48,025 bases of DNA from Methanoregula sp. (GTDB lineage: Archaea > Halobacteriota > Methanomicrobia > Methanomicrobiales > Methanospirillaceae), in assembly GCA_030651815.1 (NCBI GenBank), contig JAUSBW010000241.1, forward strand, positions 1 to 48,025, read 5' to 3'. Positions within the stretch are counted from its first letter, which is position 1, and every line of letters starts with the position of its first letter. This document shows, piece by piece, positions 18,988 to 37,789 of this stretch. The translations under genes and the position numbers were made by a program. The notes under the pieces were generated by a model that was not told the origin of the DNA, did no database searches, and saw only the letters and a list, made by a program, of their open reading frames with translations.

Positions 18988-19203
18988 GGTAAAAACACGG
19001 GAAACGGTGATTTGATCGGGATTTCCATGGCCTTGTGACAGGCCGTTTTTTCTGAATGTTTGTTATGGGACGGCAGTTCGAAAAAGATTTTGCCCATGTT
19101 GCCGGAATCTACGACCGGTTTTGTTACCTCCCGTGCATTGGTCTCTCCCCCATCGGATCTGTCAGTTTATCATGTTTCAGATCAGAAACAAGGTTTGATA
19201 CCC
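18988..19203. other. Divergent intergenic region
   Basis: About 215 bp between the MFS start and the PBP4-like start. It must hold promoters for both. No convincing operator was found by eye. Confidence 0.3.
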
Positions 19204-20793
19204 ATGCCATCATATCCATTTGTCCGATCCTTTCCGGTGCTTATCATGATATTCCTGCTGGCCGCTCTTATGATCGCGGCGGGATGCACGAGTTCTCCTG
19301 TGCCAGCCCCTGAATCCTCATCATTCGAGAGCAACCTCTCCACTATCACGAGCGCTCCCCGGTATACGCATGCCAGCTGGGGAATTATCATCGTTGATCC
19401 AGCAACCGGCACAACCCTCTACGAGAGCAATGCCGACCAGATGTATGTGCCAGGATCCACAACAAAACTTTTCTCATCAGCAGGAGTCCTTGAAACTCTA
19501 GGCCCGGATTACCGGTTCAGAACCCCGGTCTACGCGATGGGTTCAGTCGATGGCAGCGGAAAACTCAACGGGAATCTGGTTCTTGTCGCAAGCGGTGATC
19601 CAAATATGGGCGGGCGCACGCTCCCCGATGGCACCATCGCCTATACCAACATGGATCACGGTGACGCAAATGCACTGCAAGGGGCGCTCCTCACACAGAC
19701 CAATCCTGTTGCCGGCCTTGACGATCTCGCATCGCAGGTGAATGCTGCCGGGATCACGGAAGTATCCGATGTGGCCATTGATGACCGTCTGTTCGAAACG
19801 ACCGATCTTGGGAAAACGTTTGTCATCTCCCCGATCAGCATCAACGATGACCAGATCGATATCACCCTCTCCCCCGCAGCACCCGGTTCTGCCCCGTCGC
19901 TTGAAATGCGGCCGCAGACTGCTGCGTACCGTCTCGTCAATAAGGTAACGACCGGTCCGGCAGGAAATCCCCTCGAAATTTCCGTAACGGAAGTACCCAA
20001 AGGAACAATTATTGTACAGGGAACGATAGCTGCCGATGCAGGACCGGTCAACCAGACCTGTCCCATAAAAACACCCGCCGCATTTGCCCGCACGCTCTTC
20101 ATCGAGGCATTGAGCCGGCAGGGAATCCGGGTAGTCGCTGCAGCAACCGGGGATAACCCTTCGGCAAAACTCCCGGCACCGGCTGCGTACACTGGCGCGC
20201 GGAAGGTTGCAGAACTCACCTCGCCCCCGCTATCAGAAGATGTGAAACTGACACTCAAGGTCTCCCAGAACCTCCATGCCGACACCTACATCTCCCTGAT
20301 TGCCGCAGCATCCAACAAAACCGGTTTCTACGACGGCATGCAGGAAGAGGGAAAGATCCTCAAATCCCTCGGTCTTGATACACGCGGTGTTTCCTTAGGG
20401 GATGGTGAAGGTGGTGCGATCGAAGATCGCATCTCCCCCCGGTCCGCTGCAGAGCTCCTGACCCTGATGGCCAAACGACCGTATGCCGAGAAGTACGTGA
20501 ACGCACTCCCCATCCTTGGGGTTGACGGGTCCCTTGCCACGTCATGCAGCTCTGACAGCCCGGCACGCGGTAACGTGTATGCAAAGACCGGCACCACCGG
20601 CACCTATGATCCGCTGAACAACCGCGGTATCCTGCTTGCCAAATCCCTTGCCGGGTATGTTGACACCTCACACGGGAAGCGGCTGGTCTTTGCCATCTAT
20701 GTGAACAATGTGCCCTTTGAAAATGTCGATGACATGATGGCCGCAGGCAACGATCTTGGCAGCATTGCCGGGGCAATCTACACGTATTATTGA
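19204..20793 (+). CDS. dacB: PBP4/DacB-type D-Ala-D-Ala carboxypeptidase-like lipoprotein (S13)
   Basis: 529 residues. All three active-site motifs of penicillin-binding proteins are present: SxxK as STTK at 85-88, SxN as SQN at 354-356 and KTG at 461-463, in the spacing of the S13 (PBP4/DacB) family, whose large insert between the first two motifs is also present. An N-terminal hydrophobic segment ends in a lipobox-like AAGC (Cys28) with a Ser/Pro/Glu-rich tether, so the enzyme should be anchored outside the cell. I chose ATG 19204 because it gives a clean signal peptide and has AAGG 11-14 nt upstream; a longer in-frame extension is not supported. Methanomicrobiales lack murein, so the substrate is unclear. 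A role on another peptide or as defence against bacteria is speculation. Confidence 0.88.
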   Translation: MPSYPFVRSFPVLIMIFLLAALMIAAGCTSSPVPAPESSSFESNLSTITSAPRYTHASWGIIIVDPATGTTLYESNADQMYVPGSTTKLFSSAGVLETLGPDYRFRTPVYAMGSVDGSGKLNGNLVLVASGDPNMGGRTLPDGTIAYTNMDHGDANALQGALLTQTNPVAGLDDLASQVNAAGITEVSDVAIDDRLFETTDLGKTFVISPISINDDQIDITLSPAAPGSAPSLEMRPQTAAYRLVNKVTTGPAGNPLEISVTEVPKGTIIVQGTIAADAGPVNQTCPIKTPAAFARTLFIEALSRQGIRVVAAATGDNPSAKLPAPAAYTGARKVAELTSPPLSEDVKLTLKVSQNLHADTYISLIAAASNKTGFYDGMQEEGKILKSLGLDTRGVSLGDGEGGAIEDRISPRSAAELLTLMAKRPYAEKYVNALPILGVDGSLATSCSSDSPARGNVYAKTGTTGTYDPLNNRGILLAKSLAGYVDTSHGKRLVFAIYVNNVPFENVDDMMAAGNDLGSIAGAIYTYY

Positions 20794-30828: not shown

Positions 30829-31535
30829 TGCTTGGATGGGATAGGGCTCTCCCTTTGCCCTCAGTCCGGACAATTGAGGAGATGCGGTCTGTCCTTGCCG
30901 ACCCTTCGTGTGAGGGCAGCACCCCCCTCTATTTTATGTACCGCGATCTGGCAAAGTCAGACGCGGACCGGCAATGGTTACACAGCCACTCGCTGCGCTA
31001 TGATCTCACAGTTATTCCACCCTGCACCCTTTGTGGTGAATGGGTGAAAACCAAGGGACATTATCACCCGCAAAAACCTTCCGGGATTGGGTATCCGGAA
31101 GTCTATGAAGTCTTAGAAGGCGAGGCTCTGTACCTGCTCCAGTCGCGGAGGCTGGATGATGTGGTGATGATCTCTGCAAGCACCGGAGATACCGTCATTA
31201 TCCCCCCGGATTATGGGCACATCTCCATCAATCCCTCTGCTGATAAGACCCTTGCCATGGCCAATATTGTCTCTACTGCGTTTGAGAGCGAGTACGGTGA
31301 ATACGAGACTCTCCACGGGGCAGCGTATTATGCGATGAGCAATGGAAACCTGAAGAAAAACCCCTATTACCCGAAGATACCTGAGGTGAGGTATCCCGGT
31401 TCACACTGGAGATCCGCTATGCACCGCTTCTGCACGGGGCCACTCTACACTCTTATCGGGAATGGGTCAGTACTCGGGTTCCTCAACTTCCCGGAAAAAT
31501 ACCCGGCTGTCTTTGCAGAGCTGCTAAAAGGTTAG
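30828..31535 (+). CDS. pgi: Glucose-6-phosphate isomerase, cupin type
   Basis: 235 residues from ATG 30828. Interconverts glucose 6-phosphate and fructose 6-phosphate. The cupin metal site is visible: KGHYHPQ (two His), then EVYEVLEGEA (Glu) and PPDYGHISIN (His). This archaeal family (GPI, pfam06560) is unrelated to the classical PGI. The start codon shares the A of the preceding stop (TGATG), so it is coupled to the frameshifted surface protein. Its last 53 bp overlap the end of nadE on the other strand. Confidence 0.88.
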   Translation: MLGWDRALPLPSVRTIEEMRSVLADPSCEGSTPLYFMYRDLAKSDADRQWLHSHSLRYDLTVIPPCTLCGEWVKTKGHYHPQKPSGIGYPEVYEVLEGEALYLLQSRRLDDVVMISASTGDTVIIPPDYGHISINPSADKTLAMANIVSTAFESEYGEYETLHGAAYYAMSNGNLKKNPYYPKIPEVRYPGSHWRSAMHRFCTGPLYTLIGNGSVLGFLNFPEKYPAVFAELLKG

Positions 31536-32259
31536 GTGATGAGAGCCGCTTATGCTCACTTTTCTTCACCAGTACAAGGACTTTTTCCTCAGTAGTTGTG
31601 GCTGCCAGCCACTGGTGCTGTTCAAGAGCCCGTAATGCTGCATCAATCTCGGCATAGGAAAGCCCGATTTCGCTCTCGTCACTCTGGCCTTCCCACAACC
31701 CGGCAGACGGGGCTTTTTTTAAGATAGGATCCGGAATCTTCAGTTCCCTTGCGGCTTCATAGACTTCATCCTTATACAGGTGAAGGATCGGCTGCACGTC
31801 CGCTGCATTATCCCCGAATTTGGTGCTGTAACCGAGCATATACTCGCTCCGGTTGGATGTGCCGCAGACAAGCCGGTGGTCCCGGTTGGCGTAATAATAG
31901 ATCACAGCCATCCTGACACGCGCCATGAGGTTCCCCTCCAGGTACCGCGATGGGGAATAATCCGGTATGGTTTTAAACCCCTCAAGCATAGGTTCGATAC
32001 TGACTATTCTGTGCTCCATACCCAGCCCGGCACAGAGTAATGCCGCGTCCTCACAATCTTCTGGATTGCTGATTGCAGACGGAAGAGAAAGTCCAAGCAC
32101 CTTTTCAGGGCCGATCGCCCGGCAGCAGAACGCAGCTGCCACCGCAGAGTCTACACCTCCACTCACACCTATGACGATACCCGTGCACCCACTGTTCCAG
32201 CAGGCATACCGGATCATCTGTTCAATCTGTCCCAACCTGCACCCAAGATCTGCTGCCAT
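31483..32259 (-). CDS. nadE: NH3-dependent NAD+ synthetase
   Basis: 258 residues. Makes NAD+ from deamido-NAD, ATP and ammonia. PP-loop SGGVDS at 33-38, YTEM-type segments such as LVCGTSNRSEYMLGYSTKFGDNAADVQPI, and PSAGLWEGQSDESEIGLSYAEIDAAL near the C terminus. No glutaminase domain, so it uses free ammonia or a partner. Minus strand, 15 bp after the K+ channel gene. Its C-terminal tail overlaps the convergent isomerase gene. Confidence 0.93.
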   Translation of the reverse strand: MAADLGCRLGQIEQMIRYACWNSGCTGIVIGVSGGVDSAVAAAFCCRAIGPEKVLGLSLPSAISNPEDCEDAALLCAGLGMEHRIVSIEPMLEGFKTIPDYSPSRYLEGNLMARVRMAVIYYYANRDHRLVCGTSNRSEYMLGYSTKFGDNAADVQPILHLYKDEVYEAARELKIPDPILKKAPSAGLWEGQSDESEIGLSYAEIDAALRALEQHQWLAATTTEEKVLVLVKKSEHKRLSSPNLLAALQRQPGIFPGS

Positions 32260-32274: not shown

Positions 32275-33984
32275 TTATATCAGATGAATGAACTTTTTCA
32301 ACTGTTCGGTATCCCCGACTGCTATGAGGGCATCCCCTTCAAGAATGATCTCTTCTGCTTCAGGGGCAATGATTGAGCGGCTCTGGCTCTCGATACCTAT
32401 GATACGGACACCTGTTTTTCTGGTAAACCATTTCAGGGGTTTTGCGTAGGCTTTATTGGCATGTTTCAGGATCACAATGTCTCCGTTGGGCAGTTCGAGA
32501 AGAATGGTGGCAGTACCAGCCAGGATGATCCTTGCGATCGTCTGGCCCCCGATCATGGGCAGCAGGGCTACGTAATCAGCACCCGCCCGGTAGAGTTTTT
32601 CAACGCTTGCCGGCTCATTGGCACGGGCAAGGATTCGTATGACCGGGTTCAGGTTCCGGGCCATAAGCGTGGTAAAAATATTCACATCGTCATCGTTTAA
32701 GGCAACAATACAGAACCGTGCTTCTTCTATGCGGGCTTTTTTCAACACCGCTTCATCCTCTGCATTGCCGATAACCTGTTCCACGGCTTGTTGTTTTGAA
32801 TCCACTACTATGCAGGAGACGCCGGATGCATGGAGTTCCTGGTATGCACCGGCACCAACATCCCCAAATCCTGCGATCACCGCAAAAGCGTCTGCACACC
32901 CGTAGGTATTGAACTCTTCCCGGATCGCAGTGACAATGGATTCAGCCCTGCCAAAAAGGAAGAGTGATGTCGTGTTGTCGACAACGATATCGTGACTGGG
33001 TTCAGGAATGAATTTTCCGGCCTTCCAGAGGAATGGCACAATGATGCCGAATCGCTCAAAAAGCTGAAGTTCTGAAAGGGACTTGAATGCCGCCCGGCAC
33101 CCGAAAACCACCGGAATGTTGATGAGCCGGAGTTCCTGTTCTGCCGTGTGATCGAGGTTGATGTTGATCCTGTCAAGCCCGGGAATATCCGGCTCTGCAT
33201 CCCCGCCCGGGTTGAGGACTGCATGGCGTGCTAAGATCCTCCCGGTTGCATGTTTGGGGGACAGAACATAATCTGCTCCTGCATGACGGAGATACCGTTC
33301 AAAGGAAAGTTTATCCACAACCGAAATGATCTTTCCTTTAACCCGTTCCCGAATGCCAAGAACGATACTGGCGGTCTGCCGTTCATCTTTGCAGATAACA
33401 ATATTCCGGGCCTTATCGATGTGTGCTGCCACCCACGTTGAGGGATCGGTATAATTCCCCCAGATCACGTAGGCGCGTTTCCGGTAATGCGTGGCAATCT
33501 CAAGAGCGATTGCCTTGTCCTGTTCAATGATTACGATATCGTGTTCTGATATCGTGAGACTGTCAATAACCGAACGGGTAAGCTCATCATATCCCATCAC
33601 AACGGTATGTCCTGACAACACATGCGGGGTTTTTCGTGGGGGGGCGGGTGCAAGGAGAATGGTGAGGTACGGGGCGAGGAGAAGCGGGATAACGACGAAG
33701 ATCATTATCACCCCTGAGAGGATGATTTGGATCGCAAGGAATATCGTGAGATCATTATTGAATGGGAGGAGCTCACCATACCCGACAGTTGTCATAGACT
33801 GGACAACAAACAAAAGGGCACTGGTCAAGGTTATGGGTTTGTTCTCAAGCACCGGATATACCGTATGGAAGATGTACGTGTAGAGTGCGATGAGCATGGC
33901 AAACGCGAAAAAATAGATCCCTATCTGGATACCGGGGGAGTTCCTGATCACCCGCCATACCTGCCCTCGTTTAGGATGCGCCAT
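32275..33984 (-). CDS. Potassium channel with two RCK (TrkA) units
   Basis: 569 residues. N-terminal pore module: helix IYFFAFAMLIALYTYIFHTVY, pore loop with selectivity filter TTVGYG (65-70), second helix LAIQIILSGVIMIFVVIPLLL. Then a TrkA-N unit (TVVMGYDELTRSVID, binding of a nucleotide is expected but the GxGxxG is weakened), a linking TrkA-C like region, a second TrkA-N (AVIAGFGDVGAGAYQELHASG, a canonical GxGxxG) and a final TrkA-C (IIGIESQSRSIIAPEAEEIILEGDALIAVGD). It should form a ligand-gated K+ channel in the cytoplasmic membrane. The start overlaps the end of the Ncs6-like gene by 14 bp. Confidence 0.9.
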   Translation of the reverse strand: MAHPKRGQVWRVIRNSPGIQIGIYFFAFAMLIALYTYIFHTVYPVLENKPITLTSALLFVVQSMTTVGYGELLPFNNDLTIFLAIQIILSGVIMIFVVIPLLLAPYLTILLAPAPPRKTPHVLSGHTVVMGYDELTRSVIDSLTISEHDIVIIEQDKAIALEIATHYRKRAYVIWGNYTDPSTWVAAHIDKARNIVICKDERQTASIVLGIRERVKGKIISVVDKLSFERYLRHAGADYVLSPKHATGRILARHAVLNPGGDAEPDIPGLDRININLDHTAEQELRLINIPVVFGCRAAFKSLSELQLFERFGIIVPFLWKAGKFIPEPSHDIVVDNTTSLFLFGRAESIVTAIREEFNTYGCADAFAVIAGFGDVGAGAYQELHASGVSCIVVDSKQQAVEQVIGNAEDEAVLKKARIEEARFCIVALNDDDVNIFTTLMARNLNPVIRILARANEPASVEKLYRAGADYVALLPMIGGQTIARIILAGTATILLELPNGDIVILKHANKAYAKPLKWFTRKTGVRIIGIESQSRSIIAPEAEEIILEGDALIAVGDTEQLKKFIHLI

Positions 33985-34864
33985 TTTTCACCTCTCTCTG
34001 CATTAAGCCGTCATTGCAGCACCCTCGCTGGTATTCCCCGTACCATTCACATGCCCGTATAAGACCCGCAATGCCTGAAGGACAACCTGCCAGTTCTTCT
34101 CCCAGATTGAGGAGTGCATATTTTGTTGCAGGATGATTTTTCGTAAAGCAGTCCAGCATAGCGATCGTATCCTTGTGAAGTCCATCTCTCTGATCCGGTT
34201 TGACTGCCTGTTCATCTCCACATCCGCAGAGTGCTGCATACAGGGATACTTCCACTGCAGTGACTGAGATGAACGGACAGACCCGGAGGAGTGCGTCCTG
34301 ACAGGAGTTGCTACTGATCAGTTTTTCCACATCGCCCCGTATGACGCTCTCGAGCACCACACCTGCCGCATCATCAAGACATTGTCCCCATGCAATCTTT
34401 GTGATCCCGTGTTGTTGTGCAATCCTGTCGAGCAGGATGGAACGGGATGGGTGTAACAATGGCAGTGATGATATATCCTGGTTTTTTCCCGTAAATGTTT
34501 CAGCCCCGATACTGAATTCTTCCGACCACGACACCTCAAGAAACTCCGTATCCAGATCATCTGCGATACGCTTCGCACGTGAAGTGTCGCCCCGGGTACT
34601 TGTTCCATCATCTATGGTTATGGCACTAACCCGTATGTCACGGCGCTGTGCCGTGAGTTTTTTTAAAAAATAAAGAAGCGCGCTGCTGCAACGGTCACCC
34701 GAAAGAAGCACTGCGATGTGATCGCCGGGTCTGAGCCAACCCTGTGCCCGTATTACCTTTTTTGCCTTTGCTTCAACATCGACAATAAGGTGCTGATCAC
34801 AGAGATGCAACCCTGAATAGGACTGGAAAACAATTGCATCCCGGTGACATTTACTGCACTGCAT
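33971..34864 (-). CDS. Ncs6/TtuA-like PP-loop paralog with lost catalytic motifs
   Basis: 297 residues from ATG 34864, chosen because the CSKC ribbon starts there; further upstream frame is not family-like. N-terminal zinc ribbon (C3, C6, C22, H25). The PP-loop, normally SGGKDS, reads SGDRCS (55-60). The central CxxC that Ncs6/TtuA/TtcA enzymes use to hold the sulfur-transfer centre is replaced by LHPSRS (137-142), and GHNLDDEAQ appears as GQCLDDAAG (160-168). One C-terminal CxxC is also missing. So the fold is of the tRNA-thiolation family, but adenylation and sulfur transfer look impaired. Divergent from RIO2 kinase; followed by a K+ channel and nadE on the same strand. Confidence 0.78.
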   Translation of the reverse strand: MQCSKCHRDAIVFQSYSGLHLCDQHLIVDVEAKAKKVIRAQGWLRPGDHIAVLLSGDRCSSALLYFLKKLTAQRRDIRVSAITIDDGTSTRGDTSRAKRIADDLDTEFLEVSWSEEFSIGAETFTGKNQDISSLPLLHPSRSILLDRIAQQHGITKIAWGQCLDDAAGVVLESVIRGDVEKLISSNSCQDALLRVCPFISVTAVEVSLYAALCGCGDEQAVKPDQRDGLHKDTIAMLDCFTKNHPATKYALLNLGEELAGCPSGIAGLIRACEWYGEYQRGCCNDGLMQREVKNGAS

Positions 34865-34979: not shown

Positions 34980-35837
34980 ATGGCTGTTTCTGCGGAACAG
35001 ATCCGCACCCTGCATAAATACGAAAAAACCATCCTTTCGGTGCTTGAGCGCCAGATGACACGATATGCATGGGTTCCCCTGGAACAGTTAATCACCAGCA
35101 CCGGGTTTGCAGAATCCGAAGTGAATTACCGATTGGCACGCTTGATTGAGTGGGGCATGGTACGGTTCAACCCGGTACCCTACGATGGGTACGCCCTTGT
35201 TTTTGGGGGATATGACACGCTTGCACTCGCAAGTCTCACCCGGAAAGGGATCATATCGGCTCTGGGGACGCAGATTGGTGAAGGCAAGGAATCGGTTGTC
35301 TATGAGGCTCTTGGTCTCGGGCCGGTAGCCATCAAGTTCCACCGGATTGGAAGTCGATCCTTCAATTCAGCCCGGGTCAACCGTGAGTATATGACTGTAG
35401 AGGGGCATTGCCCATGGCTCATCGCATCGAAGCTCTCTGCCGAACGGGAGTATAAAGCGCTGGTGGCTCTTCATCCAAAGGTCAGCGTCCCGCTCCCTAT
35501 CGCACAGAACCGGCATACCGTGGTGATGGCGCTGATCCGGGGGGCAAACCTCAACCGCTGCCTGCTGGAGGCTCCTGCCGAAGTGCTCGATGAGATCCTG
35601 GCTAATGTCCGCACTACCTACCAGGCCGGGATCATCCATGCCGATCTCTCGGAATATAACATCCTCATGGAAGACGGCAGGTGCGTGTTCATCGACTGGC
35701 CCCAGTGGATAGAGATATCTCATCCGAATGCAGAATCCATCCTTAGCCGGGATATTGATAACATCCTCACATATTTTAAACGGAAATACAAACTCACGTA
35801 TGACCGTGAGGATGCGATACAATGCGTGACCGGCTGA
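34980..35837 (+). CDS. rio2: RIO2-type protein kinase
   Basis: 285 residues. RIO2 is an atypical kinase/ATPase in small-subunit ribosome maturation. The N-terminal winged helix (1-~90: YAWVPLEQLITSTGFAESEVNYRLARLIEWGMVRF) precedes the kinase domain with the P-loop IGEGKESVVYEA (99-110), Lys in VAIKFHRIG, the catalytic loop HADLSEYN (220-227) and metal-binding IDWPQW. The hinge VVMALIRGANLNRCLL is typical. Overlaps the start of the COG2433 gene by 16 bp. Confidence 0.93.
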   Translation: MAVSAEQIRTLHKYEKTILSVLERQMTRYAWVPLEQLITSTGFAESEVNYRLARLIEWGMVRFNPVPYDGYALVFGGYDTLALASLTRKGIISALGTQIGEGKESVVYEALGLGPVAIKFHRIGSRSFNSARVNREYMTVEGHCPWLIASKLSAEREYKALVALHPKVSVPLPIAQNRHTVVMALIRGANLNRCLLEAPAEVLDEILANVRTTYQAGIIHADLSEYNILMEDGRCVFIDWPQWIEISHPNAESILSRDIDNILTYFKRKYKLTYDREDAIQCVTG

Positions 35838-37789
35838 GAGTCTTTGGCATCGATATCATCAAAGGATCGGTGAGGTCGCGTACCCGCAGGCCGGTTTATG
35901 CGCTGATCCGGATGGAAGGCCAGACTATCGTGAGCGAATCCGAGGTCTCGCTGTTCCGGCTCTTCCGCATGCTCAGGGAGGAACAACCCGATATCCTTGC
36001 AGTCGACAGCCTGCAGGAGATCGCTGCTGACCAGCGCGAACTCTACTTCTTTTTGCAGGGTCTGCCCCCGCAGACCCGGCTCGTTCAGGTGACCGGGGGT
36101 GAGCGCAAGGAGACGCTTTGCAAGGTTGCGGCCCGGTACAATATCAGTTTCAACCGTTTCGATCCCTTTGCTGAAGCCCGGACAACCGCACAGGTGGCCT
36201 GCCTGGGTGCCGGCGCCGAGGTCATCGCGTTTGAGAGCGAGAGCGAGATCATAGTGAGCCGGCACCGCTCACTGGGAAAGGGCGGGTGGAGCCAGAACCG
36301 GTACGTGCGCAAGATTCACGGGGCAGTGCAACTCAAGGGGCGGGAGATCGAGCAGGCCCTTGTCGCAGCCGGGCTGAGATATGAGAAGAAGGAGACCCGG
36401 GCATTTGGCGGGTGCAGCCGGGTGGTATTCCGGGTCTTTACTACCCGGGACCAGGTACCCGTTTCCACCTACCGTGGTTCCGATGTGCAGGTGCGGATCA
36501 ATGGCAAACGGCTCGAACGGATCCAGTACCGCCCGCTCTCGGGAAAGCCGCGTTACCTGATTGTCGGAATTGACCCCGGGACTACCACCGCTTTTGCCGC
36601 CCTGGATCTCGACGGAAACCTCCTGCATCTCCAGAGTTCCCGGCAGATGAATATGGGGGATGTGATAGAGTCGCTCTACAAAGTCGGAAAACCCCTCATC
36701 ATCGCATCCGATGTTCAGGATATGCCCTTTTCTGTTGAGAAGATCCGACGGGCGTTCAGCGCGATTGCATATACCCCGAAACAGGATGTGAGTGTTGAGA
36801 CCAAACTGGAGCTTGCCGCCCCCTTTTCGTATGGAAACGATCACGAGCGGGACGCGCTTTCAGCAGCTCTCGATGCGTACCGCCAGTACCGGCATAAGTT
36901 CCAGAACCTGTTAAAACGGATTCCCCCGGGGCACGATCTCGATGAAGTCAGGGCACGGGTGATCCGCGGGCAGTCGTTAGAGCACGCGCTCGCAGAGATG
37001 AATGGTGGTGCAGTCCCTACTCCCCAACGGGAAGCGCCTCCCGCCCGGATTGATGAAAAACACGATGAGCGGGTGCGTGTTCTGGACGGGATGGTCAAGC
37101 GACTCCGCACGTTTGTTGCCGAACTGCAGGAAGAGATCAAGGGAAAAGATTACGAGATTCGCCGTCTGCAGGCACGTATCCGGAAGGTTCAGACCTCCCG
37201 TGATGCGGAGCTGGCAAAGGATACCGAAGTGGTAAAAAAGGATGCAATTATCTCAAGTTTGAAAAAGCATTTACGAAAAGAGGAACGCCACAACCGGAAC
37301 CTTGCCAAACGGTTGGCACGGATCAAACAGTTTGCGGAACTCTCCATGGATGGCGAAGTGGTTCCGGTAAAAGTGATGGATACGCTGACAAAAGATGGTC
37401 TCAGAAGGCTCACTGAAGATGTAGGAATCGATGAAGGAGATGTTGTCTTTGTTATCCGGATCGATGGCTGGGGCAGGAGTGTTGTTAAGGATCTCGCTGA
37501 AATGCGGGTGAAAGCGGTGGTTGTCGGAGCCGCAGTACTTGCCGGGAGCGATCCGCTGCTCATCCCCTCCTTCCGTGAAGCCGGAATCCCCCTCATTACA
37601 GATAAGGAAGCGGGTGTCCAGATCCGGGGTAAGCAGGGACTCTGCAGGAAGGAGGCGCTTGATCATGCCCTGCTCCAGTGGCAGGGAGTACAGATCCGGC
37701 ATGAGCGGGAGAAAAAGACTGAATTGATCGAGCACATCTTCAAGGAGTACAAGAGCGAACGGGGTAAGGAGGTGAAAAAGAGTGGATGA
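35822..37789 (+). CDS. COG2433/DUF460 RNase H-fold protein
   Basis: 655 residues. The N-terminal half has two RNase H/RuvC-like segments: VFGIDIIKGSVRSRTRRPVYALI near the start and the YLIVGIDPGTTTAFAALDLDGNLL segment near 243-265. Between them are family-conserved regions (RFDPFAEARTTAQVACLG). Residues ~415-490 form a long coiled coil (VRVLDGMVKRLRTFVAELQEEIKGKDYEIRRLQARI). The C-terminal domain has DPLLIPSFREAGIPLIT. The family is near-universal in euryarchaea, usually predicted to act on nucleic acid, but without known function. It is sandwiched between RIO2 and ThiL with overlaps on both sides. Confidence 0.85.
   Translation: MRDRLRVFGIDIIKGSVRSRTRRPVYALIRMEGQTIVSESEVSLFRLFRMLREEQPDILAVDSLQEIAADQRELYFFLQGLPPQTRLVQVTGGERKETLCKVAARYNISFNRFDPFAEARTTAQVACLGAGAEVIAFESESEIIVSRHRSLGKGGWSQNRYVRKIHGAVQLKGREIEQALVAAGLRYEKKETRAFGGCSRVVFRVFTTRDQVPVSTYRGSDVQVRINGKRLERIQYRPLSGKPRYLIVGIDPGTTTAFAALDLDGNLLHLQSSRQMNMGDVIESLYKVGKPLIIASDVQDMPFSVEKIRRAFSAIAYTPKQDVSVETKLELAAPFSYGNDHERDALSAALDAYRQYRHKFQNLLKRIPPGHDLDEVRARVIRGQSLEHALAEMNGGAVPTPQREAPPARIDEKHDERVRVLDGMVKRLRTFVAELQEEIKGKDYEIRRLQARIRKVQTSRDAELAKDTEVVKKDAIISSLKKHLRKEERHNRNLAKRLARIKQFAELSMDGEVVPVKVMDTLTKDGLRRLTEDVGIDEGDVVFVIRIDGWGRSVVKDLAEMRVKAVVVGAAVLAGSDPLLIPSFREAGIPLITDKEAGVQIRGKQGLCRKEALDHALLQWQGVQIRHEREKKTELIEHIFKEYKSERGKEVKKSG

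Follow-up and report, generated by a model that had tools for sequence, protein, structure and literature searches.

Archaeal NcsA is described in PMC10067955 as a homodimer in which three cysteines hold a [4Fe-4S] cluster and zinc is bound at either end. In eukaryotes, according to the same source, CTU1 is the catalytic protein and CTU2 lacks the cysteines and keeps the zinc sites, and its authors derive the CTU1/CTU2 pair from a duplicated homodimer (PMC10067955). Here we analyse a window, meaning the whole stretch of 48,025 nucleotides under study, corresponding to contig C271 in a draft genome of 3.28 Mb whose close relatives are Methanomicrobiales MAGs. One of its ORFs, which we call NcsA-1, is, judged by sequence, an NcsA/Ncs6-type tRNA thiolase (U34-tRNA) by descent with its active site gone.

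The NcsA-1 gene and its neighbours

The first-pass annotation had placed this ORF in the Ncs6/TtuA family, and that placement holds: it matches Pfam TtuA_LIM_N with 39.1 bits (cut-off 27, E 7.9e-10), and its nearest PDB relative by sequence is the NcsA of Methanococcus maripaludis (6scy, E 1.2e-13). The match to Pfam ATP_bind_3, the PP-loop family, is faint (E 0.022). Against NCBIfam NcsA the protein scores 82.7 bits, the curated cut-off being 500; the intact NcsA proteins of the order likewise stay below it (195-212). An AlphaFold2 model built on 6 sequences has low confidence and gives weak support only (mean pLDDT 48.7, pTM 0.48); its best Foldseek match is again 6scy (E 1e-10).

Alignment to orthologs locates the lost motifs (Table 1). 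The change of SGGKDS to SGDRCS had been read correctly. The central CxxC is lost, as claimed, but LHPSRS is not its replacement, since the aligned column reads LPLL and LHPSRS starts 3 residues after the start of LPLL. The loss of the third Fe-S cysteine (K-P-D) had been overlooked; the [4Fe-4S] cysteine positions are L134, L137 and K222, with 0/3 cysteines left. Where one C-terminal CxxC was thought to be gone, each CxxC has in fact lost one cysteine, so the damage is real and worse than claimed. The zinc ribbon said to remain does so at the N-terminal end, but the C-terminal one is broken.

Table 1 NcsA-1, its motifs and its neighbours in the window
Feature	Coordinates	Strand	Details
NAD synthetase NadE	31483..32259	-	15 bp after channel gene
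K+ channel with TrkA domains	32275..33984	-	start overlaps NcsA-1 end by 14 bp
NcsA-1, predicted pseudoenzyme, NcsA/Ncs6/TtuA-like	33971..34864	-	297 aa, start at 34864
C-terminal zinc ribbon remnant	34007..34051	-	residues 272-286, CEWY / CCNDG; one cysteine lost per CxxC
Former third Fe-S cysteine (of C-P-Y)	34199..34201	-	K222 (K-P-D); alignment to orthologs
Former Fe-S CxxC	34454..34465	-	residues 134-137, LPLL; alignment to orthologs
Former PP-loop	34685..34702	-	residues 55-60, SGGKDS to SGDRCS; alignment to orthologs
N-terminal zinc ribbon, intact	34784..34861	-	residues 2-27; C3, C6, C22, H25; Pfam TtuA_LIM_N
RIO2 kinase	34980..35837	+	divergent from NcsA-1, 115 bp between
DUF460 protein	35822..37789	+	after RIO2

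The neighbours are those first listed, with RIO2 divergent and, co-oriented with NcsA-1 and downstream of it, the K+ channel and NadE, and homologues of NcsA-1 share the arrangement DUF460-RIO2 / gene / (channel) / NadE across the order. NcsA lies near DUF460 in 5/24 outgroup loci, and the RIO2-linked position is thus probably the ancestral place of NcsA in Methanomicrobiales. Intact NcsA-1 copies adjoin RIO2 as well, and in three genomes (G116, G106, G096) NcsA-1 lies away from RIO2 and adjoins NadE, with the ribbon still present; adjacency to RIO2 is therefore uninformative on the function of NcsA-1. Most NcsA-1 copies were found by similarity, a procedure that could favour ribbon-bearing ones. 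Of 24 loci found by RIO2 alone, 19 have NcsA-1 beside RIO2 and 3 have it relocated, and in the other 2 a contig end cuts it off.

Elsewhere in the window, a gene at 19060-20793 (+) encodes a Peptidase_S13 protein of the D-Ala-D-Ala carboxypeptidase family (E 6.9e-68). It stands in the genome of a methanogen, an organism that should have no murein.

Dead and intact copies among related methanogens

The PP-loop motif is absent from 69 homologous NcsA-1 copies, a set that includes the split copy L062 (G017), both copies of G119, and L231, which has no RIO2 near. Each of the N-terminal zinc ligands C3, C6, C22 and H25 is kept in 69/69 of them, and also in the three relocated copies, which were counted outside this set. 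Retention elsewhere is low: 16/69, 18/69 and 13/69 for the Fe-S cysteines, 23, 15, 25 and 17 of 69 for the C-terminal zinc cysteines, and 10/69 and 1/69 for the lysine and the aspartate of the PP-loop. Since this ATP-binding loop is the very part that is lost, we reject the proposal that the protein was repurposed to bind a nucleotide; it may, as proposed alongside, bind tRNA. Intact copies have 89 nearly invariant columns, and in dead copies conservation stays at 85% or more in 25 of these; Q14, S17, G18, R39, R74, P198, E206, Y210, H245 and P246 (L012 numbering) are conserved there as well.

Outside the genus, many NcsA-1 homologues retain SGGKDS, CSYC, C-P-Y and both ribbons. Within it the decay is graded, from SGGKNS with CxxC, through SGN/SGD with CxxC, to the group of the window, in which all are gone; the most reduced forms of the genus (215-267 aa) have neither the central segment nor the C-terminal ribbon. 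The shortest dead copies measure 197 aa, with about 100 core residues missing.

Three peculiarities appeared in individual copies. The dead NcsA-1 of G017 (L062 2895-3718) is split over two frames, being either a true pseudogene or a frameshift error. Intact NcsA-1 copies from three genomes of one genus (L024, L027, L028) carry in-frame insertions of repeated stretches in the C-terminal ribbon. At about residues 160-167, L012 and other intact NcsA-1 copies mostly read GFNLDD/GMNLDD, where NcsA-2 (see below), 6scy and PH0300 have a GH.LDD-type motif; this change of a conserved histidine predates the loss of catalysis.

A second, intact Ncs6 in the same genome, which the first-pass annotation had envisaged, is present on contig C84, and NcsA-1 is thus not the only Ncs6 of its genome. 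This second protein, NcsA-2, retains the PP-loop and all three cysteines in 75/75 copies. Sequencing error is rejected as an explanation of the missing motifs, the loss being common to relatives, single-contig genomes included. With the catalytic motifs absent both here and from the copies of relatives, and with an intact NcsA-2 in the genome, the predicted loss of thiolation chemistry, already suspected, is well supported.

Co-occurrence was tabulated for the genome of the window and its relatives G001-G119, of which 116 genomes were usable (G008, G023, G047 and G055 were left out for lack of data). A dead NcsA-1 together with NcsA-2 is found in 67 genomes, an intact NcsA-1 alone in 37 and both intact in 5 (G051, G083, G084, G092, G097). 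In 4 drafts with a dead NcsA-1, NcsA-2 was undetected (G025, G032, G088 and G114; 78, 77, 91 and 96%), and 3 genomes have NcsA-2 without NcsA-1 (NcsA-1 absent: G019, G029, G093). For the 89 genomes at least 90% complete the same classes number 49, 33, 4, 2 and 1; NcsA-2 is thereby present in 49/51 near-complete genomes having a dead NcsA-1, and NcsA-1, dead or intact, in 88/89. The exception, G029, is a two-contig genome in which no RIO2, DUF460 or NcsA-1 was detected, reflecting either a missing stretch or a joint deletion. The association of dead NcsA-1 with NcsA-2 gives a Fisher p of 2e-17 with relatedness ignored. In a phylogeny-aware test, 5 independent pairs lie on supported branches, and NcsA-2 differs the same way in 4.0, the opposite way in 0.1 and is equal in 0.9 of them on average; with 5 pairs this is not significant by itself (sign test, median p 0.125).

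NcsA-2 forms one clade (support 100) and intact NcsA-1 another (100), and the two are joined (94) inside the phylum, the pattern that an ancient duplication within the order would leave. Given this joint clade, an origin of NcsA-2 outside the order is unsupported within the sample of this phylum and two reference proteins (the trees omit L077 and L181, both below 240 aa, and some were built from row subsets). The presence of NcsA-2 is patchy: family f5 has it in 1/9 genomes, only in G090, where NcsA-1 reads SGDGDS, without the PP-loop lysine, but still has its cysteines. This patchiness, and a distance between G092 and G097 of about 0.11 for NcsA-2 and about 0.57 for RIO2, suggest some horizontal spread of NcsA-2 within the order.

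Catalysis by NcsA-1, as read from its motifs, has been lost repeatedly. On the RIO2 tree the dead state amounts to 9 changes, at least 5 of them on supported branches, and an irreversible-loss count on this single-gene tree gives 13 to 23 changes, depending on the root. In 17 pairs of dead NcsA-1, dN/dS is 0.17-0.49; the values are 0.07-0.35 for NcsA-2 (16 pairs), 0.03-0.15 for RIO2 and 0.06-0.18 for intact NcsA-1 (four pairs). In 17/17 pairs dN is lower in residues 1-45 than in the rest of the dead protein. Constraint on dead NcsA-1, measured in this way, is relaxed but real, and strongest at residues 1-45. A pseudogene evolving neutrally is rejected, as dN/dS is not near 1 and the loss of ligands is not random. 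Because catalysis has been lost repeatedly, yet the N-terminal ligands persist in every dead copy and dN/dS stays in this range, dead NcsA-1 is, on sequence grounds, a retained pseudoenzyme. Its maintenance beside a working enzyme in many related methanogens suggests that it has another job, perhaps like that of the inactive half of CTU1/CTU2.

Possible roles of dead NcsA-1

By analogy with CTU2 and CTU1, the likeliest role of dead NcsA-1 is that of a non-catalytic subunit working with NcsA-2, a proposal to which we give slightly less than an even chance. The presence of NcsA-2 would have made the chemistry of NcsA-1 dispensable, and the active site would then have decayed with the protein being retained. 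NcsA-1 would pair with NcsA-2, replacing a second catalytic monomer, and its N-terminal zinc ribbon, together with the C-terminal helices, would help in holding the tRNA, making it a separately evolved functional counterpart of eukaryotic Ncs2/CTU2. We infer that the protein is made, paired with NcsA-2 and touching tRNA. The loss of the motifs, the kept N-terminal ribbon, the intact and nearly always present NcsA-2 and the purifying selection support this proposal. Branch rates point in the same direction in a comparison with few control genes, for which 57, 29 and 29 genomes had all genes long enough. The rates of dead NcsA-1 and NcsA-2 covary with a partial r of 0.59 (57 genomes), 0.50 (29 of the genus) and 0.54 (29, additionally controlled for NadE), the bootstrap intervals lying above 0 in all three sets; no covariation with RIO2 is seen in the same sets (0.00, 0.01 and -0.06). 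Covariation with NcsA-2 but not with RIO2 indirectly favours a subunit working with NcsA-2. With DUF460 the values are uneven (0.25, 0.35 and -0.01). Counted against the proposal are the covariation with NadE (0.47), the small number of control genes and a Pfam search, open to hits with E as high as 1, in which CTU2 did not appear. Moreover, since the loss is recurrent and partly follows an apparent horizontal gain of NcsA-2, dependence on the partner would need to have arisen repeatedly, and in the 197-aa copies the missing core means that the dimer surface may be gone.

As the main alternative, NcsA-1 may always have had a second, non-thiolating role, such as RNA- or protein-binding, with only its thiolase half decaying when NcsA-2 is present; we consider this possible, at clearly less than even probability. 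A role of this kind would need the zinc ribbon and the C-terminal helices and neither ATP nor the Fe-S cluster, and the survival of the same parts in repeated parallel losses fits it at least as well as it fits a subunit. It also accommodates the near-universal presence of NcsA-1 in the near-complete genomes, the one without it lacking RIO2 and DUF460 as well, and the binding of Haloferax NcsA to aCPSF1, EF-1 alpha and PAN given in PMC4048286. However, the rate covariation is strongest with NcsA-2. To our knowledge, no second, non-thiolating function of NcsA is established in methanogens. A third possibility, that dead NcsA-1 is a functionless gene in slow decay whose frame has survived by chance or because its translation is coupled to the channel/NadE operon, is improbable: dN/dS well above that of RIO2, the copy in two frames and the lengths down to 197 aa would suit it, but the invariant zinc ligands, the dN/dS below 0.5 and the lower dN of residues 1-45 in 17/17 pairs, and the persistence of the gene after its departure from RIO2 in three genomes do not. 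We give very little credence to a ribosome-biogenesis factor acting with RIO2, which the order-wide adjacency to RIO2 and DUF460 would suggest, as intact copies share that adjacency, three genomes have broken it with the gene beside NadE, and the rates of the two genes do not covary.

We see an even chance that the pattern reflects a recurrent archaeal split of a homodimeric thiolase into an active and a dead subunit, or else a hidden essential function of NcsA that is exposed once a second thiolase relieves it of catalysis.

Comparison with described thiolases

Dead partners of tRNA enzymes are already known. Our literature search, which took in few subscription journals and excluded preprints, returned no paper describing a recurrent dead NcsA in archaea. 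The copies form a natural archaeal series, from intact proteins through those that have lost only the PP-loop lysine to remnants of 197 residues, which shows the parts of a dead thiolase that persist and permits a direct test between an inactive partner for tRNA thiolation and something else.

NcsA-1 resembles M. maripaludis NcsA (6scy) in overall fold, according to the low-confidence model, and in its N-terminal zinc ribbon, motif order and descent, but has neither the PP-loop nor any of the three Fe-S cysteines, and its C-terminal ribbon is lost. TtuA (P. horikoshii PH0300, T. thermophilus) shares the N-terminal ribbon and the fold, but keeps the PP-loop and the CxxC and acts on U54. Ncs2/CTU2 differs in its apparently independent origin, in a Pfam family that NcsA-1 does not match and in the C-terminal zinc site that NcsA-1 has lost; like NcsA-1, it is a diverged thiolase paralog in the same genome as an intact one, without Fe-S cysteines and with a zinc site kept. 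If the subunit proposal is true, the archaeal combination of an active and a dead subunit would represent the step thought to have produced CTU1/CTU2 in eukaryotes.
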